The notes beneath the pieces were generated by a model that ran no database searches, had not been told where the DNA came from, and saw nothing but the letters and a program-made list of their open reading frames with translations. DNA of 64,000 nucleotides from Tessaracoccus oleiagri (GTDB taxonomy: Bacteria > Actinomycetota > Actinomycetes > Propionibacteriales > Propionibacteriaceae): assembly GCF_900103275.1 (NCBI RefSeq), contig NZ_FNGP01000001.1, positions 992,001 through 1,056,000 of the forward strand, given 5' to 3'. How positions within the stretch are numbered: position 1 is the first letter of the stretch; each line of letters begins with the position of its first letter. Positions 7,478 through 23,924 of this stretch are shown here, one piece after another. The translations under genes and the position numbers were made by a program.

Positions 7478-8227
7478 ATGACGGAACGCGTCGACCGCGC
7501 CAGCGCCATCATGGGCGTCCTCTCGGACACCGGCTCGGCCTCCGTGGCGGACCTCGCCCAGGACCTCGGCGTCAGCGAGGTCACCATCCGCGGCGACCTC
7601 CGCAAACTCGAGCAGCAGGGCAAGCTCGTCCGCACCCACGGCGGGGCCCGCCCGCTCGGCCACAAGACGATCCTCCAGCGCGAGCGCATCCGGGTCGACG
7701 AGAAGCAGCGCATCGCCGCGGCCGCAGCCGCCATGCTGACCGACGACGACGCGGTGATGATCGAGGCCGGTACCACGGCCGCGCTGATCGTGGGGCACCT
7801 CACGGGCCGGCTCGGGATCCAAGTGGTGACCAACTCCGCGCTGGTCTTCGCGCACGCGCGCGCCAACCCCGCACTCAACGTAATCCTCTCCGGCGGTGTG
7901 TTCCGGCACGAGTCCGAGTCGTTCGTCGGGCCCATCGCCGAGCGCACCGTTGGTGAGTTCAACGCGCGCATCGCGTTCCTCGGCACCGACGGCTTCTCCG
8001 CGGAGCGCGGGCTGACGACGCGATTCGTCGAGGGCGCGCAGGTCTCCAACATCATGCGCGACCGCGCGGAGGAGACGTGGCTGGTGGCCGACTCGTCGAA
8101 GTTCGGCCAGGCCGGCTTCGTGAGCTTCATGCCGCTCGCCCGCATCACCGGCATCATCACCGACTCGGGACTGACCGACGAGGCCGCCGCCTCGCTGTCC
8201 GAGCACACCCAACTCCGCATCGTCTGA
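7478..8227 (+). CDS. DeoR/GlpR-family transcriptional regulator (first paralog)
   Basis: 249 aa. N-terminal DeoR helix-turn-helix with SVADLAQDLGVSEVTIRGDL (about residues 22-41) followed by a sugar-phosphate-sensing domain (IEAGTTAALIV, VVTNSALVFAHA, ILSGGVFRHESESFVG, LVADSSKFGQAGFVSF). Members usually repress sugar operons until a phosphorylated intermediate binds. It lies inside the operon it probably controls. By eye it is about two-thirds identical to the second DeoR gene at 12408-13160, pointing to duplication. Confidence 0.93.
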   Translation: MTERVDRASAIMGVLSDTGSASVADLAQDLGVSEVTIRGDLRKLEQQGKLVRTHGGARPLGHKTILQRERIRVDEKQRIAAAAAAMLTDDDAVMIEAGTTAALIVGHLTGRLGIQVVTNSALVFAHARANPALNVILSGGVFRHESESFVGPIAERTVGEFNARIAFLGTDGFSAERGLTTRFVEGAQVSNIMRDRAEETWLVADSSKFGQAGFVSFMPLARITGIITDSGLTDEAAASLSEHTQLRIV

Positions 8228-8236
8228 GAGGAACCC

Positions 8237-9580: not shown

Positions 9581-10665
9581 TGCACTCCCTGTCGCCCCGA
9601 CTCCGCGGCCTCCTCATGGCGGCGCACGGCGTGCCCGTCGTGCTGCGCCCGAGCGACGAGGCACCGGACGTCACGCTCACCGCCGGGGGCGACGGCTCCC
9701 TGGAGGCGCCTGAGACGCCCATCGACCTGCCCGCGGTGATCCGTGTGGTGTCCGGCGACGAGCAGCGCACCGTCCGCGCCGAGGTGCTGCCCGGCGCCGT
9801 GCCGGTGCTGGACCCCCGTGATCGCGGGGCGGCCTCGGCGGCGAGCAGGTCGGCGGTCGTCGCCGGCCGGGTCGCGCTCGTGACCGGCGGTGCCCAGGGA
9901 TTCGGCGAGGAGATCGTCCGCGCGCTGCACGCCTCCGGGGCGTGGGTGTACATCGCCGACCTCAACACCGACGGCGCCACCGCGCTCGCCGACGAGCTGG
10001 GGGAGCGCGCCACCGCGGTGGCGGTCAACGTCGCCGACGAGGACTCGGTGGCGGCGATGGCGAGGGTCGTCGTCGACACCACGGGCGGCCTCGACCTCGT
10101 GATCTCCAACGCGGGCATCGCCCGCGCCGGCTCGGTGCTGGAGCAGCCGCTGGCGGAGTTCGCGCTGTCCACCGACGTGAACTACGTCGCCTTCTTCCTG
10201 GTCACCAAGCACCTCGGGCGGATCCTGCGGGACCAGCACGCCGGCGGCCCCGGCTGGCTCACGGACATCATCCAGATCAACTCGAAGTCCGGACTCCGCG
10301 GCTCGAACCGCAACGGCGCCTACGCCGGCTCGAAGTTCGGCGGCATCGGCTTGGTCCAGAGCTTCGCCCTGGAGCTCGTCGAGCACGGGGTGAAGGTCAA
10401 CGCGATATGCCCCGGCAACTTCCTCGACGGGCCGCTGTGGTCCGACCCGGTGAAGGGCCTGTTCGTGCAGTACTGGAAGTCGGGCAAGGTGCCCGGCGCG
10501 AAGAGTGTCGACGACGTGCGTCGCCACTACGAGGCGCAGGTGCCGATGCGTCGAGGCACGTTCGGCGCCGACGTGATGCGCGCGGTCTACTACCTCGTCG
10601 AGCAGGCCTACGAGACGGGCCAGGCGCTACCGGTCACCGGCGGGCAGGTCATGCTCAGCAGCTGA
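9577..10665 (+). CDS. SrlD-like short-chain dehydrogenase with N-terminal extension
   Basis: 362 aa. A classical SDR core begins near residue 97: ALVTGGAQGFGEEIVRAL (cofactor loop), NAGIARAG, INSKSG and YAGSK (catalytic Ser, Tyr and Lys). The C-terminus, CPGNFLDGPLWSDP followed by a VPMRRGTFGADV stretch and TGGQVML, resembles sorbitol-6-phosphate 2-dehydrogenase (SrlD), which oxidises a hexitol-6-phosphate to a 2-ketose-6-phosphate. About 95 extra residues precede the SDR fold and match nothing I recognise. It is translationally coupled to the PHP gene (ATGA overlap). Paired with the SorE-like reductase it would complete a C2-to-C5 carbonyl shift. The true substrate is not shown by sequence. 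Confidence 0.78.
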   Translation: MMHSLSPRLRGLLMAAHGVPVVLRPSDEAPDVTLTAGGDGSLEAPETPIDLPAVIRVVSGDEQRTVRAEVLPGAVPVLDPRDRGAASAASRSAVVAGRVALVTGGAQGFGEEIVRALHASGAWVYIADLNTDGATALADELGERATAVAVNVADEDSVAAMARVVVDTTGGLDLVISNAGIARAGSVLEQPLAEFALSTDVNYVAFFLVTKHLGRILRDQHAGGPGWLTDIIQINSKSGLRGSNRNGAYAGSKFGGIGLVQSFALELVEHGVKVNAICPGNFLDGPLWSDPVKGLFVQYWKSGKVPGAKSVDDVRRHYEAQVPMRRGTFGADVMRAVYYLVEQAYETGQALPVTGGQVMLSS

Positions 10666-11511
10666 GCCGGGCTCCCCGTCGGACGGGATCCCCGCCTCCT
10701 CCAGCGCGGCCCACGCCTGGTCCTCGCCGTCGAACAGTTCCCGGCCGGCCAGCATGTAGGCCGACAGGTACGCCTCGCGCGCCTCGTCATCGCGTCCCTG
10801 GCACCGGAGAGCATCGCCGAGGCGCAGCCACACGTAGCCGTTGCCGGTCCCGCCGGGGGCGCGCGTCGCGATCCGGGCGGCCTGCTCGGCCTCGAGGAAG
10901 TGCGCCGACTCCAGGCAGGCGTCGCAGAGGCCGACGTAGAGGTCCAGCGACTCCTCCCACTGCGTGTACGGCTGGGGGAGCAGCGCGATCGCGGCGGCGT
11001 AGGCCGCAGCCGCAGCGCCCGGTGCGTCGCGTTCCATGAACGCATCGGCCTCGGCGGACTGGCGCGCCACCTCGGCCACGACGGCGTCGTCGAGCTCGTC
11101 CTCGATCTCGCCGACGCCCGGCTCCGGCACCCGGACGTCCCAGCCGGCGCCGGGTCCGGGTCCCGGGTGCGCAGTCGGCTCCTCCGCGCGTCGCTCGTTC
11201 AGCCTCGCCAGCAGGGAGTCGACGAGCGCCCGCGACTCGGTGGTGTGCGGGGTGTGGGCCTCGTTCAGACGGTCGATCCAGATCACTGCCTCGTCGAGCC
11301 GGCCGGTGTCGATGCACAGGCCCGCCATGTCACGGGTGATCGTCTGCCCGTAGTAGTCCCACTTGAGCTTCGGCTCCGGCAGGAGTTCCCACGCCTCGCG
11401 CCATTTCGCGCGCGCAGTGGCGTGGTCACCCGCGTCGCGGGCGTCGTGCCCCTCGTTGACCAGGTCGTCGAGCGTCGGCTCGAGTGCGCTTTCCACCGTC
11501 GGCCTCTTCAT
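10627..11511 (-). CDS. Tetratricopeptide-repeat-like hypothetical protein
   Basis: 294 aa, acidic, no signal peptide or membrane segment. Two helical repeat blocks are visible: residues about 15-105 (HATARAKWREAWELLPEP, GLCIDTGRLDEAVIWIDRL) and about 150-275 (AAAYAAAIALLPQPYTQWEE, LEAEQAARIATRAPGG, CQGRDDEAREAYLSAYMLAG), separated by a Pro/Gly-rich linker. This is typical of TPR scaffold proteins. The 3' end overlaps the convergent SDR gene by 39 nt. TAGGAT stands 6 nt before the ATG, so the mRNA may be leaderless. It looks unrelated to the sugar genes on both sides, and its function is unknown. Confidence 0.75.
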   Translation of the reverse strand: MKRPTVESALEPTLDDLVNEGHDARDAGDHATARAKWREAWELLPEPKLKWDYYGQTITRDMAGLCIDTGRLDEAVIWIDRLNEAHTPHTTESRALVDSLLARLNERRAEEPTAHPGPGPGAGWDVRVPEPGVGEIEDELDDAVVAEVARQSAEADAFMERDAPGAAAAAYAAAIALLPQPYTQWEESLDLYVGLCDACLESAHFLEAEQAARIATRAPGGTGNGYVWLRLGDALRCQGRDDEAREAYLSAYMLAGRELFDGEDQAWAALEEAGIPSDGEPGSAAEHDLPAGDR

Positions 11512-11517
11512 GGGCCG

Positions 11518-11523
11518 ATCCTA
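11518..11523 (-). promoter_or_regulatory. -10 element of the TPR gene, leaderless start
   Basis: TAGGAT on the minus strand with 6 nt before the ATG and no Shine-Dalgarno. This places the transcription start at or next to the start codon. Confidence 0.45.
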
Positions 11524-11563
11524 CGATCGACGGCGTGCCACGAGGCCGTTTCCGGCCGCAGCG

Positions 11564-12238
11564 TCAGTCGGGGAGACGGTCGGTGCCGTAGACCTTCTTC
11601 CAGTCCGCGGAGAACTGGTCGACGGCCGCGACGATGTCCGGGGCGCCGAGGGCCACCTCGAGCAGGCTCGGGGGCATCGTCACCGCGTGGGCGCCCGCCT
11701 CGAGGGCGTGCGACACCTGGGCGATGTTCTTGAAGCTCGCCGCCATGATCTTCGTGGACGCGTCGAAGCGGTCGATGAAGGCCGCCAGCGCGGCGATCGT
11801 GTCGCGGGTGTCGATGTCCAGGCTCTGCATCCGGTTGTAGTACGGCGCGAGGTAGTCCACGCCGGAGGCGATCGCCATGAAGCCCTGCGTCTTCGAGTAG
11901 ATGGCGGTGGCGGTCACGCGCACGCCGTCGGCCTTCAGCGCGCGCATCGCACGCACCCCGTCGGCGGTCGTCGGCACCTTGACGTACACCTGGTCGTCGA
12001 TGTTCGTGAGGAGGCGGCGGGCGTCGTCGAGAATGCCCTGGTAGTCGGTGGCCACCACCTGGACGTGGAGCGTCCGGTCGGGCCCGATGATCTCGCGGAT
12101 GCGGCGGAAGTGGGCGTAGAACTCCACCTTGCCCTCGCGCCGCAGGATCGTGGGGTTGGTGGTGACCCCGGTGAACGGGTAGATCGGCGTGAGCCGCTCG
12201 ATCGCCTTCAGGCTGGCCGTGTCGAACAGGATGTCCAT
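11564..12238 (-). CDS. FSA/TalC-type fructose-6-phosphate aldolase-like protein
   Basis: 224 aa, the length of the small transaldolase/FSA group. It begins MDILFDTASLKAIERL, followed by GVTTNPTI (residues 24-31) and the Schiff-base lysine in QVYVKVP (K87), then VTATAIYSKTQGFMA, YNRMQSLDID and KIMAASFKN. FSA enzymes cleave or form the C3-C4 bond of a 2-ketose-6-phosphate, releasing glyceraldehyde-3-phosphate plus dihydroxyacetone, or hydroxyacetone from 1-deoxy sugars. The start was set at the ATG after AAGGAGGAAC; an open frame extends further upstream but through the operator region. It is divergent from the second deoR and shares its control region. Confidence 0.85.
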   Translation of the reverse strand: MDILFDTASLKAIERLTPIYPFTGVTTNPTILRREGKVEFYAHFRRIREIIGPDRTLHVQVVATDYQGILDDARRLLTNIDDQVYVKVPTTADGVRAMRALKADGVRVTATAIYSKTQGFMAIASGVDYLAPYYNRMQSLDIDTRDTIAALAAFIDRFDASTKIMAASFKNIAQVSHALEAGAHAVTMPPSLLEVALGAPDIVAAVDQFSADWKKVYGTDRLPD

Positions 12239-12303
12239 TGGTTCCTCCTTCGCCCGCACCATCGTGCGCCCGAAAGAGGCGGCCGTGTGTGGGCGACGCA
12301 AAA

Positions 12304-12370
12304 AGACTACGCGAAACCGCAAAAAAAGTTGAGCGAAAGTCTTTCGAAAGCAGACGAAAGGTCTTAGGCT
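12304..12370. promoter_or_regulatory. Divergent control region with CGAAAG/CTTTCG operator array
   Basis: CGAAAG occurs at 12334-12339, 12345-12350 and 12355-12360 (spacing 11 and 10), with CGAAA at 12312-12316 two turns away. The middle copy forms the palindrome CTTTCGAAAG (12341-12350). For deoR2 a -10 TAGGCT (12365-12370) stands 17 bp from TTTCGA (12342-12347). For the aldolase a minus-strand TAGTCT (12304-12309) is a candidate -10. The array matches the CTTTC boxes before the SorE-like gene. Confidence 0.6.
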
Positions 12371-12407
12371 GGTGGAACCGAAGGTGGAAGCCGGTCGAGG
12401 AGGACGA

Positions 12408-13160
12408 GTGAACGACGAGCGTGGCGGTCGCGAGGTCGCGATCCTGACGCGCCTGTCCGACGCCGGCTCCGTGAGCGTCGCCGAGCTCGCCGAGCAGCTG
12501 GGTGTCTCCGTGGTGACCGTGCGCGCGGACCTCAAGTCGCTGGAGGAGCAGGGCATGCTCGTCCGCACCCGGGGCGGCGCGAAGCCCTTGGCCTACAAGA
12601 CGATCTTCCAGAGGGAGCGCGTCAACGTCGACCAGAAGCGGCGGATCGCCACCGAGGCGGCGAAGCTCGTCGCGGACAATGACACCGTACTGATCGAGGC
12701 GGGCACGACCGCTGCCATGATCGTCCGCTTCCTGACCGGGCGACGCGGGGTCCAGATCGTCACCAACTCCACCCTCGTGTTCAACAACGCGCGCTTCAAC
12801 CCCGCGCTCAACATCATCCTCACCGGCGGCGTCTTCCGCCGGGAGTCCGAGTCGCTCGTCGGCCCCACCGCCGAACGCGCGGTACGCGAGTTCAACACCC
12901 GGATCGCGTTCCTCGGCACCGACGGCTTCTCGCCGGAGCGGGGGCTCACCACCGGGTTCGTCGAGGGCGCCCAGGTGGCGGCCCTCATGCACGAGCGCGC
13001 CGAGGAGACGTGGCTCGTCGCGGATTCGAGCAAGTTCGGCCAGGCGGGATTCGTGAGCTTCCTGCCCCTGGCCGCCATCACAGGAATCATCACCGACGCA
13101 GGGTTGTCGGCCGAGGCGGTCGAGGCCCTGTCGGAACACACGCAAGTACGCGTGGTCTAG
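12408..13160 (+). CDS. DeoR/GlpR-family transcriptional regulator (second paralog)
   Basis: 250 aa. Helix-turn-helix SVAELAEQLGVSVVTVRADL at about residues 23-42, then the sugar-phosphate sensor domain (IEAGTTAAMIVRFL, ILTGGVFRRESESLVG, LVADSSKFGQAGFVSF). The GTG start is preceded by CGAGGAGG; an in-frame ATG 36 nt earlier has no ribosome site and overlaps the promoter. It leads the E2-E3-E1 operon, 9 nt before E2. It is close in sequence to the DeoR at 7478-8227, and both probably recognise CTTTC-type boxes, so cross-regulation is likely. Confidence 0.93.
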   Translation: MNDERGGREVAILTRLSDAGSVSVAELAEQLGVSVVTVRADLKSLEEQGMLVRTRGGAKPLAYKTIFQRERVNVDQKRRIATEAAKLVADNDTVLIEAGTTAAMIVRFLTGRRGVQIVTNSTLVFNNARFNPALNIILTGGVFRRESESLVGPTAERAVREFNTRIAFLGTDGFSPERGLTTGFVEGAQVAALMHERAEETWLVADSSKFGQAGFVSFLPLAAITGIITDAGLSAEAVEALSEHTQVRVV

Positions 13161-13169
13161 GAGGAAACA

Positions 13170-14540
13170 ATGGCGACCGTCGTAGTGATGCCCGCGCTGG
13201 GCAACAGCGTGGAGAGCTGCCTGATCATCGGCTGGTCCGTGGCCGAGGGCGACCAGGTGCGCGAGAACGACACCCTCTGCGAGGTGGAGACCGACAAGGC
13301 CTCCATGGAGGTGCCGTCCACCGCGTCCGGCACCGTCCTGAAGCTGCTCTGGGAGGCGGGGGACGACGTACCCGTCATGCAGCCGTTGGTCGTGGTCGGC
13401 GAGCCGGGCGAGGACCCCGGCCCGGCGCTCAACGACGCCGGCTGGGACGCCTCCGGCGACGAGGTGGAGGCCGCCTCCGCGCCGGTCGCCGAGCCCGAGC
13501 CGGAGCCCGCCGCCGAGGCGCAGGCCCCGGCCGCGCGCCAGGCCGCCGACGGCGCGTCGAGCCCCCGGGCCCGCGCGCTCGCCGCGTCCGCGCACGTCGA
13601 CATCCAGACCATCGCCGAGGGTTCCGGCCCGCACGGTCGCGTGATCGAGCGCGACGTGCAGGCCGCCATCGACTCGGGCCGCGCCACGGCCGCCGCCGGA
13701 CGCGCCGGGGCCGTCGGAACCGACGTGGAGGGCACCGGCCTCGGCGGCCGCATCTCCAGCGCCGACCTCGCACGCCCCCAAACGGCAGCCGCCGAGGAGG
13801 CCCCGGCGCCGCAGCCCGCCGCCACCGCGGCCGCCCCGGCTGGTTCGTACACCGACACCCCGCTCAAGGGCATCCGCAAGGTCATCGCCGAGCGCATGAT
13901 GGCCTCGCTCAGCTCGTCGGCGCAGGTCAGCTACACCATCACCGCGGACGCGGCCGGCCTGCTGGCGCTGCGCGCCCGGTTCAAGCAGTCGGACCCGGAG
14001 CTGGGCTTCGCCGGCATCACGGTGGGCGACCTCGTCGGCTACGCGGCCGTCAAGGCGGCCGAGCGCCACCCGTCGCACAACTCCCACCTCGTCGACGGCG
14101 TGCTCCGCACCTTCGCCGACGTGCACCTCGGCTTCGCCTGCGACACCCCGCGGGGCCTCCTCGTCCCCGTCGTCCGCGACGCCTCGTCGCTCTCGCTGAA
14201 GCGTTTCTCGGAGCGCAGCAAGGAGCTCGCCCGCCAGGCGATCGACGGCACCATCAGCCCCGACGACCTCCAGGGCGCCACGTTCACGGTCAGCAACCTC
14301 GGCAGCTTCGGCGTCGAGACGTTCACCCCGGTGCTCAACGCTCCGCAGTCGGCCATCCTGGGCGTCAGCGCGATCACGCCCCGCGCCGCGGCCGGCCCCG
14401 ACGGGGAGCTCGTGCTCCAGCAGCGGATCGGCTTCTCGCTGACCGCGGACCACCGGGTGATCGACGGCGCCGACGCGGCCCGCTTCCTGCAGGACCTGGT
14501 GCGGCTCGTCGAGCACATCGAGTTCACGGTGATGGGCTAG
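13170..14540 (+). CDS. Dihydrolipoamide acyltransferase (E2) of a 2-oxoacid/acetoin-type complex
   Basis: 456 aa. One lipoyl domain (residues 1-80) with the lipoylated lysine in ETDKASMEV (K43). An Ala/Glu/Pro-rich linker is followed by a peripheral-subunit-binding domain (SPRARALAAS to GSGPHGRVIERDV, about 130-165), then by a partial repeat of its second half (GTGLGGRISSADLARP). The C-terminal catalytic domain ends with TADHRVIDGADAARFL, the family His/Asp active site. It transfers the acyl group made by E1 to CoA. The acyl group is unknown. In an operon with deoR2 upstream and E3 11 nt downstream. Confidence 0.92.
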   Translation: MATVVVMPALGNSVESCLIIGWSVAEGDQVRENDTLCEVETDKASMEVPSTASGTVLKLLWEAGDDVPVMQPLVVVGEPGEDPGPALNDAGWDASGDEVEAASAPVAEPEPEPAAEAQAPAARQAADGASSPRARALAASAHVDIQTIAEGSGPHGRVIERDVQAAIDSGRATAAAGRAGAVGTDVEGTGLGGRISSADLARPQTAAAEEAPAPQPAATAAAPAGSYTDTPLKGIRKVIAERMMASLSSSAQVSYTITADAAGLLALRARFKQSDPELGFAGITVGDLVGYAAVKAAERHPSHNSHLVDGVLRTFADVHLGFACDTPRGLLVPVVRDASSLSLKRFSERSKELARQAIDGTISPDDLQGATFTVSNLGSFGVETFTPVLNAPQSAILGVSAITPRAAAGPDGELVLQQRIGFSLTADHRVIDGADAARFLQDLVRLVEHIEFTVMG

Positions 14541-14551
14541 GAGGGCGACAG

Positions 14552-15919
14552 GTGAGCGACTACGACGTCATCGTCCTGGGCGGCGGCCCCGGCGGCTACA
14601 TCGCCGCCGAGCGCCTCGGCCACGCCGGCAAGAAGGTGCTGCTCGTCGAGGGCCAGTACCTCGGTGGCACCTGCCTCAACGTGGGCTGCATCCCCACCAA
14701 GACGCTGCTGAACGCCGCGAAGAGCTACGCCCACGCGCAGCACGGTGCCCGGATCGGGCTCACGGTGGAGGGCCTCAGCCTCGACTGGGCCAAGCTGCAG
14801 GCCTGGAAGAAGAAGGTCGTCGACACCCTCGTCGGCGGCGTCGCGCAGAGCGAGAAGAAGGCCGGCGTCGAGGTGCTGGAGGCCTACGGGCGCTTCGAGG
14901 GCCCCGGGCGCGTGAGCGCGGACGGCCGCACCTACACCGCCGAGCACGTGATCCTCGCCACCGGCTCCGTGCCGGTCATGCCGCCCATCCCCGGCGTGCG
15001 GGACAACCCCCAGGTGGTGGACTCGACGGGCTTGCTGGACATCCCCGAGCAGCCGAAGCGGCTCGTCGTCATCGGCGGCGGCGTCATCGGCATCGAGTTC
15101 GCCAGCCTCTTCGCCACGCTCGGCTCGCAGGTGAGCGTCATCGAGATGCTGCCCGAGATCGTCCCCAACATGGACACGGAACTCGCCGCCACCATGCGCC
15201 GCGCGCTGAAGGGCATCGACTTCCACCTGTCGTGCAGGGTCACGAAGGTCGACGGCGGCACCGTCCACTTCGAGACCGCCGACGGAAGCCCCGGCTCCGT
15301 CGAGGCCGACGTCGTCCTGATGGCCGTCGGCCGCAGGGCGGCTCTGGAGGGCTGGGGCGCCCAGGAGTCCGGGCTCGACATCGGCCGTGGCGGGATCGTC
15401 GTCGACGACCGGATGCGCACCAACCTGCCCGGCGTCTGGGCCGTGGGCGACGTGACCGGCCGGTCCCTGCTCGCCCACGCCGCCTACCGGATGGGTGAGG
15501 TCGCCGTCGCCAACATCCTCGACCCGCAGGCGCACCGCCGCGGCGAGGTCATGCGCTGGCACCTCGTCCCGTGGGCCGTCTACTCGCTGCCCGAGGCCGC
15601 CGGCGTCGGGCTCACAGAACAGCAGGCGCGCGCCGCCGGCCGCGACGTCGTCACCGCCACCGTGCCGGGCTACATGTCGGGCCGGTTCATCGCCGAGGAG
15701 GGGACGCAGGCCGTCGGCGCGTCGAAGATCGTCGTCGACGCGCGCACTCGCCAGGTGCTCGGCATCCACCTCCTCGCGCCCTACGCCTCCGAGGCCATCT
15801 GGGGCGCCACCGCCGTCCTCGAGACCGAACTCAGCATCGACGACCTGCGCCAGGTCGTCATCCCCCACCCCACCATCAGCGAACTCATCCGTGAGGCCGC
15901 CTGGGCCGTCAAGGCCTGA
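14552..15919 (+). CDS. lpdA: Dihydrolipoamide dehydrogenase (E3)
   Basis: 455 aa flavoprotein disulfide reductase that reoxidises the E2 lipoyl group with NAD. FAD-binding [18 protein letters not shown], redox disulfide [16 protein letters not shown]-binding [19 protein letters not shown], second FAD motif [10 protein letters not shown], and the C-terminal catalytic His in [14 protein letters not shown] are all present. The GTG start follows TAGGAGGG at suitable spacing. Dedicated to the neighbouring E2 and E1 judging by position. The glutamate expected beside the catalytic His is also present (SEL). Confidence 0.96.
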
Positions 15920-15951
15920 GCGCGCCGACGTAGAAGGAAACCAGGAGAATC

Positions 15952-18408
15952 ATGACCAAGTCGCTCGTCGTCGATCCCTCGAACGTCCGCAAGGCGTCGG
16001 TGATCCAGGCACCCGAGATCCCCGTCAACCAGTACCGGCCCGACTTCGCGGCCGAGCTGGAGCGCTACGGCAAGCAGGGGCTGGTGGACATGCTCCACGA
16101 CATGATCGTCGTCCGCCAGTTCGAGTCCATGCTGGACGCCATCAAGAAGACCGGCGCCTGGCAGGGCATCGAGTACAACCACCGCGGCCCCGCGCACCTG
16201 TCGATCGGGCAGGAGTCCGCCGTCGTCGGGCAGGCCTCCCAGCTCGGCCCTGAGGACTTCATCTTCGGCTCGCACCGCAGCCACGGCGAGATCCTCGCCA
16301 AGTGCTTCTCCGCCGCCCGGAAGTTCGACGAGGCCGGGCTGCAGGAGGTCATGCGCACCTTCCTCGACGGCGAGACCCTGGGCTTCGCCGAGAAGGTGGA
16401 CCACGACAACCTCACCGAACTCGCCGAGAACTTCATCCTCTACGGCACGGTGGCCGAGACCTTCGCGCGCAAGGCCGGCTTCAACCGCGGCCTCGGCGGG
16501 TCGATGCACGCCTTCTTCGCGCCCTTCGGCTCCATGCCCAACAACGCCATCGTCGGCGGCTCCGCCACCATCGCCACCGGCTCCGCGATCTTCAAGCTCG
16601 TCAACCAGCAGCCGGGCATCGTCATCGCCAACATCGGCGACGCCTCCATGGGCTGCGGCCCCGTCTGGGAAGCCATGATGATGGCCTCGATGGACCAGTA
16701 CCGCACCCTCTGGGACGACGGGGTGCGCGGCAACCCGCCGATCTGGTTCAACTTCTTCAACAACTTCTACGGCATGGGCGGCCAGACCTCCGGCGAGACC
16801 ATGGGTTACGACATCCTCGCCCGCGTGGGCGGCGGTGTGAACGCCGAGGCCATGCACGCCGAGCGCGTCGACGGGCTCAACCCCCTGGCGGTCGCCGACT
16901 CCGTCCGGCGCAAGCGCCAACTGCTCGAGGAGGGCCGCGGCCCGGTCCTCACCGACACCATCACCTACCGCTTCTCCGGCCACTCGCCCTCCGACGCCTC
17001 CAGCTACCGCACCAAGGAGGAGATGGCGCTGTGGGAGGAGCACGACGGGCTCCGCAACTTCGCCGCCTACCTCGTCGAGAACAAGGTGCTCAGCCAGGGC
17101 GAGGTCGACGACATCGAGGCCGCGACGATCGACCGCCTCGCGAAGGTCGTCGCGCTCGCGACGAAGGAGGACGGCTCGTCGCCGCGCGTCGGGATGGACT
17201 TCATCGAGCAGGTCACCTACTCCAACGGCAACGTCGAGAACCTCGACGAGTCCCGCGAGCCCGAGCTCAAGGAGGCGCTGGAGGACAACGCGCGGGTGAA
17301 GTCGCTGAAGAACAAGGCGCGCTTCCACCTCGACGACAACGGCAAGCCCGTCTCCAAGGCCAAGGCCTACAGCTACCGCGACGGCCTGTTCGAGGCCATG
17401 GCGCACCGCTTCACCAAGGACGCCACCATGGCGGCCTGGGGCGAGGAGAACCGCGACTGGGGTGGCGCCTTCGCCGTCTATCGCGGCCTCACCGAACTGC
17501 TGCCCTGGCACCGGCTCTTCAACTCGCCCATCTCCGAGGCCGCCATCATCGGCGCCGGCGTCGGCTACGCGCTCTCCGGCGGCCGCGCCGTCGTCGAGCT
17601 GATGTACACCGACTTCCTCGGCCGCGCCGGCGACGAGGTGTTCAACCAGGCCTCGAAGTGGCAGGCGATGTCCGCCGGCCTACTGAAGATGCCGCTGGTC
17701 ATGCGCATGTCGGTCGGTTCCAAGTACGGCGCGCAGCACTCGCAGGACTGGAGCTCGCTCGTCGCGCACATCCCGGGCCTGAAGGTCTACTACCCGGCCA
17801 GCCCCTACGACGCGAAGGGCATGCTCAACCTCGCGCTGCGCGGCACCGACCCCGTCGTGTTCTTCGAGTCCCAGAAGCTCTACGACGTGCCGGAGCAGTT
17901 CGTCGCCGTCCCCGAGGAGTACTTCGAGGTGGAGGAGGGCCAGCCGGTCATCCGCCGCGAGGGCAAGGACCTCACCATCGCCGCCATCGGCCCCGCCGTC
18001 TACACCGCGCTGGAGGCGGCCGACCTGCTCAAGGAGCGCCACGGGCTCGAGGCCGAGGTCATCGACCTGCGCTTCATCGTGCCGCTCGACCTCACGCTCG
18101 TGAAGCAGTCCGTCGAGAAGACCGGCCGCCTGGTCCTGACCTCCGACGAGGTGGACCGCGGCTCGTTCCTGCACGACGTGGCCTCCCGGATCCAGTCGGT
18201 GGCGTTCGACCGGCTCGACGCCCCGGTGGTCGTCGTCGGCTCCCGCAACGCGATCACCCCGGCCGCCGAGCTCGAGAAGGAGTACTTCCCGCAGCCCGAG
18301 TGGATCCTCGACGCGATCCACGAGCGGATCCTGCCGCTCAAGGAGCACACCGCGGAGTCGAACCAGACCGACGGGGAGCTCCTGCGACGCTCGAAGCTCG
18401 GCCTCTGA
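15952..18408 (+). CDS. Thiamine-diphosphate dehydrogenase E1, alpha and beta subunits fused
   Basis: 818 aa. The alpha-type half (about 30-420) carries the thiamine-diphosphate motif from [17 protein letters not shown] to [15 protein letters not shown]. The beta-type half (about 465-790) contains [38 protein letters not shown], the [10 protein letters not shown] loop and [10 protein letters not shown]. It decarboxylates a 2-oxo acid, or cleaves an acyloin such as acetoin, and passes the acyl unit to E2. Fusion with genes ordered E2-E3-E1 differs from the usual E1a-E1b-E2-E3. The housekeeping pyruvate complex of actinobacteria uses AceE, so this is a specialised complex. The substrate is open; an acyloin-like 1-deoxy-ketose phosphate is proposed. 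Confidence 0.87.
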
Positions 18409-18409
18409 C

Positions 18410-19339
18410 ATGAGGGCGATGCGTGTCGACCGCTTCGGCGGCCCCGAGGTGCTGGAGGCGGTCGACATCCCTCGCCCCAGCCCCGGCATCAGCCAGGTCC
18501 TCGTCCGGGTCCGGGCCGCCGGCGTGAACCCCACGGACTGGAAGCATCGTGGCGGCCGCCGCTTCCTGGGCGACCCGCCCTATGTCGTGGGCTGGGACGT
18601 CTCGGGCGTCGTCGAGGAGGTGGGGCTCGGCGTGACCTTGTCCAAGCCGGGCGACGAGGTGTTCGGCATGCTGCCGTACCCCGGCGGCGCCGGTGCCTAC
18701 GCGGAGTACGTGGTCGGCCCCGCCCGGGCCTTCGCGCCCAAGCCGACGGCGGTCGACCACGTGCAGGCGGCGGCGATCCCACTCGCGGCGCTCACCGCCT
18801 GGCAGTGCCTGGTCGACACCGCCCACGTCCGGGCGGGTGATCGCGTGCTCGTCCACGCCGCCGCCGGGGGAGTGGGGCACCTGGCCGTCCAGATCGCCAA
18901 GAGTCGCGGCGCCGAGGTGATCGGCACCGCGAGTGCACCGAAGCACGACTTCGTCCGCTCGCTCGGGGCCGACGAGGTGGTCGACTACACCAGCGTCGAC
19001 TTCGCCGACGTCGTCCGGGACGTCGACGTCGTGCTGGACACGATCGGCGAGGACTACCAGCTGCGGTCGCTGAGGACGCTCAAGCGCGGCGGGACCATGG
19101 TGTCGACGGTGCCGCGCGCGGCGGAGGGGCTGTTCGAGCGGGCCGCGGAGTTGGGCGTGCGCGCCGAGCTGATCCTCGTCGAGGCCGACCACGCGGGCAT
19201 GCTGGCCATCGCGGACCTGGTGGAGCGGGGGCAGTTGCGCGCGACGATCGCCGGCACCTTCCCTCTGGACAGGGCTGCGGAGGCGCACCGCCTGGGCGAG
19301 ACCGGCCGTACGGCCGGGAAACTGGTGCTCACCGTCTGA
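18410..19339 (+). CDS. Zinc-independent medium-chain dehydrogenase, quinone-oxidoreductase type
   Basis: 309 aa. QOR-type MDR protein: MRVDRFGGPEVLE start, GVNPTDWKHRGG, then the NADP-binding HAAAGGVGHLAVQIAKSRGA (about residues 144-163). It lacks the Cys and His zinc ligands of alcohol dehydrogenases. It probably reduces quinones or enones with NADPH. The ATG begins 1 nt after the E1 stop, so it is probably cotranscribed and perhaps translationally coupled with the complex genes; a role in the same pathway or in reactive-carbonyl clean-up is possible. It ends 9 nt from the convergent GntR gene. Confidence 0.85.
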   Translation: MRAMRVDRFGGPEVLEAVDIPRPSPGISQVLVRVRAAGVNPTDWKHRGGRRFLGDPPYVVGWDVSGVVEEVGLGVTLSKPGDEVFGMLPYPGGAGAYAEYVVGPARAFAPKPTAVDHVQAAAIPLAALTAWQCLVDTAHVRAGDRVLVHAAAGGVGHLAVQIAKSRGAEVIGTASAPKHDFVRSLGADEVVDYTSVDFADVVRDVDVVLDTIGEDYQLRSLRTLKRGGTMVSTVPRAAEGLFERAAELGVRAELILVEADHAGMLAIADLVERGQLRATIAGTFPLDRAAEAHRLGETGRTAGKLVLTV

Positions 19340-19348
19340 CGGCGGACC

Positions 19349-20074
19349 TCAGAAGAGGCGGCCCTCGCCGTCGAGTGCGGGCTTGAAGAAGTTGGTGATG
19401 TGGCTGCGCACCAGCGCGGCCGCGAGCTCCCCGTCGTGCCGCTCGATGGCGTGGTAGATCTGCCAGTGCTCGCTGCGGACGGTGTGGGTGGACTCCCACC
19501 AGTCGTCGAGCGCGTCGTAGGCCTTGACCATCTGCAACTCGATCGCTGCACGGAGCCCGCGGTTGAGGTCGGTGACGATGTTGTTGCCCGCCGACGTGGT
19601 GATCAGCGCGTGGAACTCCGCGTCGAGCTGGTTGAACTCGCGCACGGGGATCGCGGGGTCGCCCATCCGGGTGAGCAGCTCGTGGAACCGCTCGAGGTGC
19701 TCGGGGCGACGGGTGGTCGCGGCCTGCCGGGCGGCCCACATCTCCATCGCGACGCGGGCGTTCAACAGCTCCGGGGTCGTGTACTGGCCCAGCGCCAGCT
19801 GGAGTTCGAGCACACTCCCGAAGGCGCTCCTCGCCCGGCTGCGGATGGTGGAGCGGCCGCCGGGCTTGCTGTCGATGATCCCCTGCGCCTCGAGCACCCG
19901 CAGGGCCTCCCTGAGCGACGCGCGGGAGCAGCCGAGCTCGGTGGCGAGGTCCCGCTCCCCGGGAAGCGTGTCGCCCGCGCCCCAGCGGCCGCCCAGGATC
20001 ATCTCGCGCAGCTGGGCCAGCACGCGCAGCTGCGTGGGCTGCTGCTCGGTGTCGAGCCCCTCGGGATCCGTCAT
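19349..20074 (-). CDS. GntR-family (FadR/FCD) transcriptional regulator
   Basis: 241 aa. N-terminal winged helix with LREMILGGRWGAGDTLPGER and LGCSRASLREALRVLEAQGI (about residues 20-70), then an all-helical FCD ligand domain (NARVAMEMWAARQA, FNQLDAEFHALITTSAGNN) holding the Asp and His residues typical of metal-assisted organic-acid binding. The ATG follows GGGGAGGA. It probably represses the divergent dehydrogenase/permease pair through the GGTCTGACC and GGTCAGACC sites at 21553-21563 and 21640-21650, which match the half-site layout of FadR-type operators. The ligand is probably a sugar acid. Confidence 0.92.
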   Translation of the reverse strand: MTDPEGLDTEQQPTQLRVLAQLREMILGGRWGAGDTLPGERDLATELGCSRASLREALRVLEAQGIIDSKPGGRSTIRSRARSAFGSVLELQLALGQYTTPELLNARVAMEMWAARQAATTRRPEHLERFHELLTRMGDPAIPVREFNQLDAEFHALITTSAGNNIVTDLNRGLRAAIELQMVKAYDALDDWWESTHTVRSEHWQIYHAIERHDGELAAALVRSHITNFFKPALDGEGRLF

Positions 20075-20095
20075 CGTTCCTCCCCATCACGAGCA

Positions 20096-20126
20096 GAGAC
20101 GCTCCGGGACGGGCCCGGAGCGTCTC
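20096..20126. terminator. Hairpin between SAF dehydrogenase and GntR genes
   Basis: A perfect 13-bp stem (GAGACGCTCCGGG with its complement) and 5-nt loop, 20 nt past the minus-strand dehydrogenase stop. No clear T-tract. It may separate the dehydrogenase transcript from the regulator gene. Confidence 0.55.
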
Positions 20127-20146
20127 GATCAAGTCACAGCCGAAGC

Positions 20147-21502
20147 CTAGCCGAGGACCTTCTCTCCCCACTGCTGCTCCATCTCGCGCCGCAGGCGAAT
20201 GGCTTCGTTGTCGGACGGCAGTTCCACGTCCTCCCAGCGGATGATCTCGCCCTCCGCCACGTCGCGCAGCAGTACCGCGCCGCCGCCCGCGAGGCCGAGG
20301 GGGAGTGCGCCGATCTCCAGCGACTTCCTGGCCGGGATGACCTCGCCCACGACGAGGTAGCCGCCCTCGCCGTCGAGCTCGTCCCCTGCCCGCAGGTCGC
20401 GCTTCGCGCGCGCGGCCACATCACCGACGAACGCGACCGGGCGGCCGGTGGGCTCGCCGCGGGTGGCGATCGAGGCGACGCTCACGCCCAGCTCGAGCCC
20501 GATGAGGTGGTACGGACGGTAGAGCGCGCCGTAGCGGCCAGTCTCGTCCGTCTGGAGACCGTACTCGGCGAAGCAGTTCGCGGCGTAGTCGTTGGGGGCC
20601 TCGAACGTGACGTAGACGCCCCAGCGGAGGTCGTTCTCCACCTGGCTGCCGTCACGGTGCAGGCTCGAGACCACCTCAACCATGCCGCTGCGGGGCAGCA
20701 CGCCGCCGACGCTCATCGGCCGCAGTTCGGAGGCGAGCTCCAGGGCGCTCACCGGCGGGAACTCCAGGCCCTCCTCGGGTACGGCCAGTCCGGTGGCGTT
20801 CGCGAGAGCGGCCATCTCGATCGCGCTCTTCGTGCCGTCGAGGAAGGAGTTGAACATCTTGGGGTTGAAGTCACCCCGGGCGAGTTGCTCGTCGGTGAAG
20901 CCGTAGTGGTCCCAGACGGTCTCGGGGGTGGACTTGCGGTACTCGGGCAGGTACTTCGTGCCCTTGCCCGCCGACACGACTCGCAGCCCGATCGCGCGGG
21001 CCCAGTCCACCATCTCGCAGATCAGCGCGGGCTGGTCCCCGTAGGCGAGCGAGTAAATGACCCCCGCCTCGTCGGCCTTCTCGCGCAGCAGCGGGCCGAC
21101 GAACGCGTCCGCCTCCACGTTGACCATGACGATGTGCTTGCGCGCCGCGATCGCGCCGAGTGCGTGGTGGGTGCCCGCGATGGGGTTGCCGGTCACCTCG
21201 ACGACGACCTCGATCTCGGGGCAGTCGAAGAGCTCGGAGACGTCGGTCGTCAGGTATGTCCGGCCGCTGGAGAGCGCGTCCGCGGTGGAGGTGGCCGAAA
21301 AGTCCTCCTCGTCCCACCCCGTCCGGGCGAGCGAAGCCTTCGCCCGTTCGACGTCGAGGTCCACTACGGTCACCAGGTGGAGACCCGGAGTCGTCGGGAT
21401 CTGCGAGAAGAACATGGAGGCGAACTTGCCGGCACCGATGACGCCCACCCGCACGGGCGTCCCTGCCCGCTCGCGGTCCTTCAGTAGCCCGTGAAGATTC
21501 AT
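20147..21502 (-). CDS. NAD(P)-dependent oxidoreductase with C-terminal SAF domain (homoserine-dehydrogenase-like)
   Basis: 451 aa. N-terminal Rossmann fold VRVGVIGAGKFASMFFSQI (about residues 17-35) and VTVVDLDVERAKASL, then a middle domain (NVEADAFVGPLL, SLAYGDQPALICEMVDWA, GKGTKYLPEYRKSTPETVWD). The C-terminal ~80 residues (AKRDLRAGDELDGEGGY to RDVAEGEIIRWEDVEL) are a SAF domain. This composition matches the uncharacterised homoserine-dehydrogenase-like group with SAF domain. The start was set at the ATG that gives MNLHGLLKDRERAG; the open frame further upstream crosses the promoter. Divergent from a sugar-acid permease, so it probably oxidises or reduces an acidic sugar or tetronate; not a threonine-pathway gene. 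Confidence 0.8.
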   Translation of the reverse strand: MNLHGLLKDRERAGTPVRVGVIGAGKFASMFFSQIPTTPGLHLVTVVDLDVERAKASLARTGWDEEDFSATSTADALSSGRTYLTTDVSELFDCPEIEVVVEVTGNPIAGTHHALGAIAARKHIVMVNVEADAFVGPLLREKADEAGVIYSLAYGDQPALICEMVDWARAIGLRVVSAGKGTKYLPEYRKSTPETVWDHYGFTDEQLARGDFNPKMFNSFLDGTKSAIEMAALANATGLAVPEEGLEFPPVSALELASELRPMSVGGVLPRSGMVEVVSSLHRDGSQVENDLRWGVYVTFEAPNDYAANCFAEYGLQTDETGRYGALYRPYHLIGLELGVSVASIATRGEPTGRPVAFVGDVAARAKRDLRAGDELDGEGGYLVVGEVIPARKSLEIGALPLGLAGGGAVLLRDVAEGEIIRWEDVELPSDNEAIRLRREMEQQWGEKVLG

Positions 21503-21548
21503 GCTGTGTGACTCCTTCGTCGATGGTTCGGACGTGATCCTCTGAGCA

Positions 21549-21650
21549 ATAGTGGTCTGACCGGGTGTAGGAGTCAAGAGGAAGTTTGATCCGGAAAAAC
21601 GCTTGACACTCGGCTGCGGAGATTGCAGAGTGGGACAACCGGTCAGACCG
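21549..21650. promoter_or_regulatory. Divergent promoters with two GntR/FCD operators
   Basis: Rightward: TTGACA (21603-21608) and weak CAGAGT (21626-21631), spacer 17, with CGGTCAGACCG at 21640-21650 near the start of transcription. Leftward: TTGACT (21572-21577 on the minus strand) and CACTAT (21549-21554), spacer 17, with TGGTCTGACCG at 21553-21563 between them. Both operators have the GGTnnnACC layout of FadR-type regulators, and the linked FCD regulator is the obvious ligand. Confidence 0.72.
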
Positions 21651-21708
21651 GATAGATGCGAGCAGCGGCAATGCCGTCGCCTGCCCGCCCGAGACACAAG
21701 GAGGTGCC

Positions 21709-22857
21709 GTGCGAGATCACGACCAGGACCGAGCGTCGCAGGACGTAATGGACAGCCCGGAGGTGGATGCCGTCAGGCCCGTTCGCGCTGCGGCGGCAGT
21801 GGTCCCCGGACCCGAGCCCCACACGCGGGCCGAATGGATCACGAAGTTCTCCGTCATCCCCGGCGCACTGATGATCGTGCCGTTGTTCATGGGTGCCCTG
21901 ATGAACACGTTCTTCCCGCAGGCACTCGAACTCGGTAGCTTCACCACTGCCCTGTTCAAGAACGGCACCGGTGCGCTGCTCGGCCTGTTCTTCTTCTGCA
22001 TGGGGGCTCAGCTCGACGTGCGCACGACCGGCCCCACCCTGCAGAAGGGGCTCGCAATACTCATCGGCAAGGTGGGTGTCGGCGTGGCCATTGGCCTCGG
22101 CGTAGCGTTCCTCCTGCCCAGCGGCGTGCTACTCGGGCTCACCCCGCTGGCCATCATCGCCGCGATGACCAACTCCAACAGCACGCTCTTCGTCGCGCTG
22201 CTCAAGCAGTTCGGCAACACCACCGACCGCGGCTCGGTCTCGGTGATCGCGGTCAACGACGGCCCGTTCATCACGATGCTCGCACTCGGCGCCGCCGGCC
22301 TCGCATCGTTCCCCATCGCCGACCTGATCGGGGCGATCCTGCCGATCTTCCTCGGCTTCATCCTCGGCAACCTCAGCCAGGTGGCCAGGAAGTTCCTGAG
22401 CCAAGGCGAACTGCTGCTGATCCCATTCCTCGGCTTCGTGGTGGGCCGGTCAATCGACTTCAAGACCTTCGGCCAGGCCGGCATCCAGGGCGTCATCCTC
22501 GGCCTCGCCACCATTTTCCTCTCCGGCATAGCCGCCATGGTGTGCCTCTGGCTGTGGCACGTCATCCGCCGGCACCCGCGTCCCGTGCGGAACCTCGTCG
22601 CCGGCATGGCGGAGGGCACGACCGCCGGCAACGCGATCGCCACTCCGGCCGCGCTCGCGCTGCTCGATCCCACCTACAAGGCCATCGAGTCCATCGCCAC
22701 GGCTCAGGTCGCGGCCGCCACCGTCACCACCGCGCTCGTGGTGCCGTTCATCGTCGGGTGGGTGGCCCGCTGGCAGCATCGCCGCGGCGTCTCGCCGGCG
22801 GCCGAGGAAGAGTTCTACGAGAGCCGGGGCCAGTCCGCACGTCCCGTCACCGCGTGA
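21709..22857 (+). CDS. KdgT-family 2-keto-3-deoxygluconate-type permease
   Basis: 382 aa, about ten hydrophobic segments, with a 45-residue polar N-terminus. Family-typical blocks include FSVIPGALMIVPLFMGALMN, NGTGALLGLFFFCMGAQLD, AAMTNSNSTLFVALLKQFG and AGMAEGTTAGNAIATPAA. KdgT proteins import 2-keto-3-deoxygluconate or similar acids with protons. A GTG start at 21709 sits 4 nt after AAGGAGG, rather close; the ATG at 21748 is an alternative start that would remove 13 residues. It precedes a transaldolase-family gene by 23 nt, so the two are cotranscribed. The substrate is inferred only as a sugar acid. Confidence 0.87.
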   Translation: MRDHDQDRASQDVMDSPEVDAVRPVRAAAAVVPGPEPHTRAEWITKFSVIPGALMIVPLFMGALMNTFFPQALELGSFTTALFKNGTGALLGLFFFCMGAQLDVRTTGPTLQKGLAILIGKVGVGVAIGLGVAFLLPSGVLLGLTPLAIIAAMTNSNSTLFVALLKQFGNTTDRGSVSVIAVNDGPFITMLALGAAGLASFPIADLIGAILPIFLGFILGNLSQVARKFLSQGELLLIPFLGFVVGRSIDFKTFGQAGIQGVILGLATIFLSGIAAMVCLWLWHVIRRHPRPVRNLVAGMAEGTTAGNAIATPAALALLDPTYKAIESIATAQVAAATVTTALVVPFIVGWVARWQHRRGVSPAAEEEFYESRGQSARPVTA

Positions 22858-22880
22858 CCCTCACCGAGAAGGAGCAACCA

Positions 22881-23924
22881 ATGTCATACCTGCACCACGT
22901 CCAGACCACCACGCCCACCAGGGTCTGGGTCAACAACCCGACCCTCTCCGACAGTGAGGCGGCGATCGCGGCCGGCGCCATCGGCGTAACGACGAACCCG
23001 GCGTTCTGCTCGAAGCTCCTGCAGACGGAGCCGGACCACATGCGCCGCATCCTCGACGAGGCGCTCACCGGTTCCCGCGACATCTCCGCGGCCGCCGAGC
23101 GCGCGTACCACCTCGCCGCCCTGGCGCTCATGGAGCAGTGGCTCCCGGTGTACGAGGAATCAGGGGGCCGGAGCGGCTTCGTCACCATCCAGGAGGATCC
23201 TCGCCGCGAGGAGGACACCGACTACATCCTCGAGGCCTCCCTGCGTGCCGCGCAGCTCGCGCCGAACTACATGGCCAAGGTCCCCGTGACGGCGCCGGGC
23301 CTGGCCGTGATCCGCGAGCTGGTGCGTCATGGCGTCCCTATCTGTGCAACGGAAGTCTTCTCCCTCTCCCAGTACCGGGCCGTGCTGGAGGTCTACCGGG
23401 AGGCGTCAGAGCGCTCGGGAAAGGCGCCCGCTCTCTACGTCACTCACATCACCGGCATCACCGACGAGTACTTCCAGAACCTGGCGCGGGCCGAACGGGT
23501 CGACGTGCCAGCGGACCTCCTGCGCAAGGCTGGAACCTTGATCGGGCTGGCCGAGTACGAGGCGTCGAGGGAGCCGGGCCTGCCCGTGCACCGCATCATC
23601 GGCGGTGGCGCCCGGGGGCTCGAGCACTTCACGAACTTCGTGGGGCTCGACCTGGACGTCACGATGAACTGGCCGATGCTGTTGGACCTCGGCCGAGACC
23701 TGGACGCGCCCGCGGCCTTCGAGCGGCCCGGCGACGAGGAGGTGGCCCTGCTGGAGGAGCGGCTGCCCAACTTCCGTCGGGCGATCGACCCGGACGGCCT
23801 GGAGGTCGACGAGTTCGCGGACTTCGGCCCCGTCATGCTGTTCCGGACGCAGTTCATGAACGGCTACTCGCGGCTGCTCGACGCCGTTGCGGAGGCCCGG
23901 AAGGGGCTGTTGGTCGGCGCCTGA
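22881..23924 (+). CDS. Transaldolase-family protein
   Basis: 347 aa. Schiff-base aldolase of the transaldolase group: IGVTTNPAFCSKLL near the N-terminus, YMAKVPVTAPG (lysine expected to form the Schiff base, about residue 134), GVPICATEVFSLSQY, and IGGGARGLEHFTNF. It is longer than FSA proteins and its motifs differ from housekeeping TalA/TalB, which carry a Lys-Leu-Ala-Ser-Thr pattern. The ATG follows AGAAGGAGC. In an operon with the KdgT-type permease and divergent from the SAF dehydrogenase, it probably cleaves the keto-sugar acid made by that dehydrogenase. The actual donor and acceptor are unknown. Confidence 0.82.
   Translation: MSYLHHVQTTTPTRVWVNNPTLSDSEAAIAAGAIGVTTNPAFCSKLLQTEPDHMRRILDEALTGSRDISAAAERAYHLAALALMEQWLPVYEESGGRSGFVTIQEDPRREEDTDYILEASLRAAQLAPNYMAKVPVTAPGLAVIRELVRHGVPICATEVFSLSQYRAVLEVYREASERSGKAPALYVTHITGITDEYFQNLARAERVDVPADLLRKAGTLIGLAEYEASREPGLPVHRIIGGGARGLEHFTNFVGLDLDVTMNWPMLLDLGRDLDAPAAFERPGDEEVALLEERLPNFRRAIDPDGLEVDEFADFGPVMLFRTQFMNGYSRLLDAVAEARKGLLVGA

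Follow-up and report, generated by a model that had tools for sequence, protein, structure and literature searches.

A putative sugar-acid catabolic cluster of Tessaracoccus oleiagri that joins an FCD regulator, a DXR-II-like oxidoreductase, a KdgT-type permease and a divergent transaldolase-family protein

Gene content of the cluster

Which substrate might be degraded by a gene cluster in which a KdgT-type permease stands beside an unusual oxidoreductase and an aldolase-like protein, with no kinase among its genes? The question is raised by positions 19349–23924 of a 64,000-nucleotide stretch of the Tessaracoccus oleiagri genome (hereafter the window; contig NZ_FNGP01000001.1, positions 992,001–1,056,000), which comprise four intact genes in two divergent pairs. 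A first-pass annotation had placed an FCD regulator, a SAF-domain enzyme, a KdgT-type permease and a transaldolase here, and the assignment of Pfam families located all four in those places. It had further called them a complete small pathway; a small inducible sugar-acid cluster was supported, and the completeness of the pathway is presumed. The cluster is assembled from an FCD-operator module, a KdgT–DRL module, and an orphan aldolase, and word searches of the literature retrieved no described counterpart of the four-gene combination. We tentatively read it, at somewhat less than an even chance, as a recently acquired, substrate-inducible catabolic cluster that would take up an unphosphorylated sugar acid, oxidise it, and split it by a class-I aldol reaction without the help of a kinase.

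On the minus strand, a DRL-family (DXR-II-like, DLO branch) NAD(P) oxidoreductase with a SAF domain (20147–21502; Pfam DRL_cat 3.4e-57, SAF 7.2e-6) is followed by a GntR-family regulator with an FCD ligand domain, the second gene of the leftward transcript (19349–20074; Pfam GntR 2.5e-17, FCD 3.9e-19). On the plus strand, the KdgT-type permease (21709–22857; 382 aa; Pfam KdgT 1.5e-100) precedes a divergent transaldolase-family (class I aldolase-like) protein of 347 aa (22881–23924; Pfam TAL_FSA 2.9e-19). The GTG start of the permease at 21709 sits behind AGGAGG, and an alternative ATG at 21748 would yield 369 aa. The permease matched PF03812 (KdgT) with 337 bits (cut-off of 25) and stayed below the cut-off of the NCBIfam equivalog TIGR00793 (219.4 vs 453.8 bits).

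Predicted operator of the FCD regulator

The palindrome GGTCWGACC occurred twice in the 64-kb window, both times in the divergent intergenic region and once before each transcript. The predicted operator GGTCTGACC (21554–21562) lies approximately 51 bp before the DRL start; GGTCAGACC (21641–21649), inside CCGGTCAGACCGG, lies approximately 59 bp before the GTG start of KdgT. For comparison, one scan of genome contigs gave 31 loci with DRL proteins 51–65% identical to that of the window, and partner genes were searched using tblastn at 1e-10 from −7 to +8.5 kb around DRL, some loci being short or ending near the gene. Of the 15 loci with an FCD orthologue, 14 (all but L043) had GGTCWGACC in the 300 bp that precede DRL, compared with 0 of the 16 loci without one (Fisher p 5.7e-8, which overstates independence because several Arthrobacter loci are closely related). 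For the looser GGTnnnACC, the background was 7.8% per 300 bp in 28 loci (26 of the 31 together with L064 and L071).

A longer operator, WTGGTCWGACCAW, gave 13 sites in 10 genomes when 13 whole genomes were searched. Eleven sites preceded a DRL gene and one preceded a TRAP operon in the L022 genome (TRAP by similarity); the last, the second site of genome G815, fell inside a predicted 119-aa frame and was treated as chance. The reversed control of WTGGTCWGACCAW gave two sites in total, one each in genomes G807 and G813. The regulatory part of our reading is thus supported by comparison: an FCD regulon with a co-occurring conserved palindrome is predicted and well supported, and the FCD protein most likely binds the GGTCWGACC palindromes, one ahead of each divergent transcript, as judged from these sequence patterns.

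Linkage in related DRL loci

FCD genes (38–45% identity) were found near DRL in 15 of the 31 loci and KdgT genes in seven (L021, L024, L040, L044, L049, L050, and L051, of which L044 and L051 are near-identical). These KdgT proteins were 66–71% identical to the permease of the window in six loci and 43% identical in L049. FCD (≥38%) and KdgT were never found together in the 31 loci, and they are joined in the window. The first-pass annotation had regarded the lack of such linkage in other genomes as an argument against its pathway. DRL–FCD and DRL–KdgT linkage recurs elsewhere, and the argument therefore fails for those three genes; the window-type transaldolase was near DRL in none of the 31 loci. 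The other partners of DRL were MFS transporters (12/31), DUF1537 kinases (7/31), TRAP genes (6/31), an HpcH/HpaI aldolase with NIPSNAP (3/31), and a RuBisCO-like protein (1/31). A candidate for the step after DRL could be named in 10 of the 31 loci, and the candidates were of differing kinds. The best curated matches of the HpcH/HpaI aldolase were HpaI (154 bits) and 2-dehydro-3-deoxyglucarate aldolase (150 bits), below the cut-offs (one protein scanned), and those of the RuBisCO-like protein with DUF1537 were OiaX (353 bits) and OiaK (186 bits), neither of which reaches the cut-off of 700. In L044, L049, and L051, DRL and KdgT are accompanied by a gene for an FMN dehydrogenase and by one resembling 2-oxo-tetronate isomerase genes.

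Two kinds of cluster resemble that of the window in parts. The DRL–KdgT–HpcH/HpaI aldolase–NIPSNAP clusters of L021 (Bacillus sp. REN16), L024 (Paeniglutamicibacter), and L040 (Cryobacterium) have in common with it DRL (60–64%), KdgT (66–71%), and a GntR gene nearby, whereas they carry the HpcH/HpaI aldolase in place of the transaldolase and no GGTCWGACC upstream of DRL, and their regulator is distant from that of the window (29% in L040, no match at 1e-10 in L021 and L024). The FCD–DRL–MFS–DUF1537 kinase clusters (e.g., L036, L038, L041, and L071) share FCD (42–43%), DRL (58–61%), the order of DRL then FCD, and the operator, but have an MFS transporter and a DUF1537 kinase where the window has KdgT and the transaldolase.

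Some of these loci were unusual in other respects. In L050 (Pseudonocardia, 13837–17913), the DRL–KdgT pair has beside it a second, short KdgT-like frame together with genes for a RuBisCO-like protein similar to OiaX, a DUF1537 kinase similar to OiaK, and a protein resembling alcohol dehydrogenases. The DRL, KdgT, and aldehyde dehydrogenase frames of L049 (10004–15977; Brucella oryzae contig) appear broken, by either assembly errors or real decay. A contig titled Bacillus subtilis SK6B4 was almost identical over the DRL locus to Pseudochrobactrum asaccharolyticum (L044 and L051), which suggests a mislabelled or mixed assembly.

Placement of the DRL oxidoreductase

The oxidoreductase matched PF21135 (DRL_cat) with 193.5 bits (cut-off of 27). 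It had been labelled homoserine-dehydrogenase-like, and with DRL_cat at 3.4e-57 and 3upl as the best PDB match (E 2.6e-57), this label is therefore only distantly right; the enzyme is better placed in the DRL/DXR-II family. Homoserine dehydrogenase itself was rejected, as the NCBIfam match was confined to residues 77–151 (26.5 bits vs the cut-off of 205), and DRL_cat and 3upl span the catalytic part. According to excerpts of a 2013 article (PMC3847144), DRL proteins consist of DXR type II, an alternative isoprenoid enzyme, and the DLO1 and DLO2 groups, which are called uncharacterised there; in the same excerpts, four DLO members tested did not complement a DXR mutant, and Thr229 is stated to be invariant in DXR-II.

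Residues were compared in an alignment of 55 DRL proteins, with DXR-II numbering transferred via the 3upl alignment. The window DRL has the NAD-binding, DRL_cat, and SAF domains in common with DXR type II/DRL of Brucella (PDB 3upl, 3upy) and retains the equivalents of Lys191, Glu174, Arg320, and Tyr322. It differs in Ser at 229 (Thr in DXR-II), in Glu at 250 (His in DXR-II), in the motif AGKGTKYLP vs AGKGKNNP, where the second lysine is kept with one residue inserted before it, and in having a permease as neighbour; Trp is present at 178. The invariant Thr229 and the AGKGKNNP motif, by which DXR-II is recognized, were hence both missing. Ser229 matches the description of DLO2 in the excerpts of PMC3847144, and Glu250 does not match the 'hydrophobic' residue described there. 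In a quick tree, the window DRL fell in a 45-row clade apart from the rows with the DXR-II motif and grouped with 26 relatives (SH-aLRT 89) on a long branch (0.67), its exact position being unsure. By its sequence, the oxidoreductase is assigned to a DRL branch without assigned function and not to true DXR-II.

The DRL gene was present in one of 39 genus genomes (E ≤ 1e-60). The same genome has a second DRL, 52% identical (L064, 8490–9827) and located beside TRAP-like genes; none of the other 38 genus genomes had a DRL match at E ≤ 1e-60. It belongs to a GntR–TRAP–DRL–RpiB-like set with a 3-hydroxyisobutyrate-dehydrogenase-like gene (L064, 3707–10328).

Active site and relatives of the transaldolase-family protein

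The active site was compared in an alignment of 18 rows, nine of which were read, including E. coli TalB and FsaA. We take the key positions to be the catalytic Asp17, Glu96, the Schiff-base Lys132, and the phosphate-binding Arg181 (TalB numbering), and we assume the roles in FsaA likewise. The Schiff-base lysine was retained, as NYMAKVPVT aligned with the lysine of TalB (Lys132) and FsaA, and the TTNP segment was kept. Asn was found at Asp17, Gln at Glu96 (as in FsaA), and Ile at Arg181, and Arg228 was kept. The loss of one phosphate ligand together with the absence of a kinase fits an unphosphorylated substrate, a reading qualified by the one of two phosphate arginines that remains. All six NCBIfam transaldolase/FSA matches listed were below their cut-offs.

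Apart from its own genome, none of 394 class genomes gave a relative better than E 1e-40, and none of 396 phylum genomes gave one better than E 1e-34; five or fewer candidates were scored in each genome listed, so that a weak relative could be missed. In another family, four of 299 genomes had matches at 31–33% identity. Three of the four were aligned and retained Asp and Arg, unlike the window protein; their neighbourhoods included iolD by family scan in L113 and inositol-type genes by similarity in L114, and in L115 the quality of the gene calls did not permit a judgement. A transaldolase paralogue of the genus likewise belonged to an inositol cluster in both genomes inspected (L065 and L066). 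In the rows read, transaldolase-family proteins of myo-inositol clusters thus have in common with the window protein a full-length similarity of 25–33% and Gln at Glu96 of TalB, but they have iol neighbours and retain both the catalytic Asp and the phosphate Arg, where the window protein has Asn and Ile.

Transaldolase-family proteins with the FSA-like Gln were observed beside myo-inositol genes in L065 (7618–8610), L066 (7920–9002), L113 (7167–8279), L114 (7061–8164), and L018 (6671–7795); the inositol context is based on iolD by family scan in L065, L066, and L113, on iolB and iolD by annotation in L018, and on similarity in L114. The protein in these clusters might replace the usual IolJ aldolase. 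On a Shinella plasmid (L017, 4759–12520), a related gene is part of an E1/E2/Lpd operon that also contains a gene for phosphoglycolate phosphatase.

Weighing of the explanations

Several observations weigh against the import, induction, and kinase-free cleavage that we propose. Two copies of GGTCWGACC in 64 kb are not above chance by count (1.09 expected; at least two in 37 of 100 shuffles), and the sites of the window lack the outer bases of WTGGTCWGACCAW, which had 0 matches in the window genome. L021, L024, and L040, counted as lacking an FCD orthologue, have a more distant GntR/FCD gene and no motif. None of the seven KdgT loci carries GGTCWGACC upstream of DRL, and the window therefore combines two modules. 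Neither an HpcH/HpaI aldolase nor a DUF1537 kinase was found in 21 of the 31 loci. The partnership with the transaldolase rests on one genome, as it stands beside none of the 31 DRL genes; with Asn for the catalytic Asp, its activity is therefore only presumed, and the change could equally mean an inactive enzyme. Finally, KDPG (2-keto-3-deoxy-6-phosphogluconate) aldolase and KDG (2-keto-3-deoxygluconate) kinase-like genes are encoded elsewhere in the genome.

The last point bears on a rather improbable alternative, namely that KdgT imports KDG for a KDG kinase and a KDPG aldolase encoded elsewhere, with DRL and the transaldolase separate or accessory. The window cluster shares with the KdgT–KdgK–Eda route a KdgT-family permease, but it has no kinase or KDPG aldolase and its permease is under the KdgT equivalog cut-off. 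The absence of KdgK and KDPG aldolase, put forward in the first-pass annotation, holds for the cluster and not for the genome, which has three PF01081 matches, two of them in dehydratase–aldolase–kinase sets. In one set (L110), Eda (TIGR01182, 245 bits, cut-off of 156) adjoins a KDG-kinase-like PfkB gene (below the kinase cut-offs) and a ManD over its cut-off; in the other (L112), a second PF01081 protein (161 bits) belongs to a galactonate dehydratase–aldolase–kinase set. The first-pass annotation had named homologues that fully account for KDG use as a further argument against its pathway, and the argument holds in half, as these genes could use imported KDG. They leave unexplained the palindrome-flanked intergenic region that KdgT and DRL have in common, they lie hundreds of kilobases off and, as read by eye, have their own regulator-like genes, and the KdgT relatives with 66–71% identity adjoin DRL genes in other genomes. 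Under another alternative, the DRL enzyme would act as a dehydrogenase on four-carbon acids (threonate, erythronate, or their 4-phosphates), as happens in pathways with a DUF1537 kinase. In its favour, a DUF1537 kinase was within 8.5 kb of DRL in seven of the 31 loci, five of them with an FCD orthologue and operator, and the best curated match of three DUF1537 proteins from FCD-linked loci was D-threonate kinase (77–87 bits, cut-off of 450). We consider such a role for DRL unlikely here. The window genome had 0 matches to DUF1537 (PF07005), by which the DUF1537 route was rejected for this strain, and the aldol cleavage of a four-carbon acid would be unattractive, since formaldehyde would be set free.

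An alternative DXP (1-deoxy-D-xylulose 5-phosphate) reductoisomerase for isoprenoid synthesis would be in keeping with the Pfam family shared with the solved DXR-II structure. This role is extremely improbable, as the genome already has a canonical DXP reductoisomerase (PF02670, 6.7e-38), the enzyme has AGKGTKYLP and Ser in place of AGKGKNNP and Thr229, and the DRL gene adjoins a transporter gene rather than isp genes. It is also very unlikely that the acquired genes are a patchwork that does not work as a pathway in this strain. The confinement of DRL to a single genome of the genus and the missing catalytic Asp of the transaldolase would agree with a patchwork, but the four frames are intact, the palindromes and the DRL–FCD order are preserved, and the second DRL beside TRAP genes is likewise found only in this genome of the 39.

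A broader possibility, which we regard as quite doubtful, is that the DLO branch consists of NAD(P)-dependent oxidoisomerases of sugar acids, which would combine oxidation with a shift of the carbon skeleton, the reverse of DXR-II, and pass the oxo-acid to interchangeable modules. The activity would be like that of D-apionate oxidoisomerase, for a branched or linear acid, and the idea is based on the RuBisCO-like case, which hints at 3-oxo acids of the apionate kind. The modules, equally doubtful, would be an HpcH/HpaI aldolase, a RuBisCO-like protein with a DUF1537 kinase, or, in this window only so far, a kinase-free sugar-acid aldolase on the transaldolase fold.

Surroundings of the cluster

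The E2, Lpd, E1, and QOR genes on its left (13170–19339) were considered as cluster members and rejected. E1, the one of the four that was searched genus-wide, was present in 18 of 23 genus genomes and in 0 of 14 others searched (76–89% per matched piece), and homologues of g8237 and g9577 come after it in each of the four relatives compared at this locus; E1 is therefore old in the genus and E2/Lpd/E1 were excluded, DRL being found in one of the 39 genomes. The region at 12408–18408 encodes a DeoR-like regulator, E2, Lpd, and a fused E1 of 818 aa, after which g8237 and a short-chain dehydrogenase/reductase gene come next in the four relatives. The gene order is rearranged in this genome (8237–10665), and g8237 (447 aa) had no Pfam match at 1e-5. 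Composition was rejected as proof of transfer, since it is weak: the 2-kb GC over the cluster was 0.665–0.718, with only the lowest value slightly under those elsewhere in the window.

DRL genes with the DXR-II motif in other operons

DRL genes of the AGKGKNNP type were observed in apparently catabolic operons (L067, 4737–12288; L068, 4509–12473; L070, approximately 7886–15968; L020, 81–10224; L019, 7001–14575), with the variants AGKGKNN in L019 and LGKGKNNP in L020. L067 has a glucitol-type phosphotransferase system (PTS), DRL, E1alpha, E1beta, and E2 (Pfam-scanned), and L068 has the same set (its PTS EIIBC was scanned, and the other genes were assigned by similarity). In L070, whose DRL has Ala at 229, similarity to E1 and E2 is present near DRL. 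L020 (Priestia plasmid) has E2/Lpd, an MFS transporter, DRL, and an FGGY kinase, and L019 (Ligilactobacillus plasmid) has DRL, a glucitol PTS, FSA, and transketolase. Eight class genomes had a DRL with the DXR-II motif; of the four viewed widely, three had E1/E2 nearby and one (L069) had IspD next to DRL. A possible explanation is the catabolism of 2-C-methylerythritol, with phosphorylation to 2-C-methylerythritol 4-phosphate (MEP), DRL running backwards to DXP, and acetoin-dehydrogenase-like cleavage into acetyl-CoA and glyceraldehyde 3-phosphate. An IspD gene downstream in L067 weakens a purely catabolic reading, and word searches of the literature found no 2-C-methylerythritol catabolic pathway of this kind.

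Proposed mechanism and significance

For the inducible, kinase-free sugar-acid cluster that we tentatively favour, we infer the substrate, the redox direction, and the products as follows. A sugar acid, probably of five to six carbons, would enter via the KdgT-type permease and bind the FCD domain, by which repression would be lifted; isosaccharinate, apionate, tetronates, KDG, and other branched acids were weighed as candidates for it. The DRL-family enzyme would oxidise it with NAD(P)+ into a beta-hydroxy keto acid, in the opposite direction to DXR-II and possibly with a carbon shift. The transaldolase-family protein would then form a Schiff base via its conserved lysine and cleave the unphosphorylated keto acid, yielding two small fragments that central metabolism could take up. 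In doing so, this protein would fill the place of the HpcH/HpaI aldolase of the three related clusters and perhaps that of the DUF1537 kinase route of some others.

One DLO-like clade is now tied to a regulator, a predicted operator, and several alternative partner enzymes, and the discovery of its substrate is directly testable. Should the transaldolase-family protein turn out to be active, the transaldolase fold would here provide a sugar-acid aldolase that needs no kinase.

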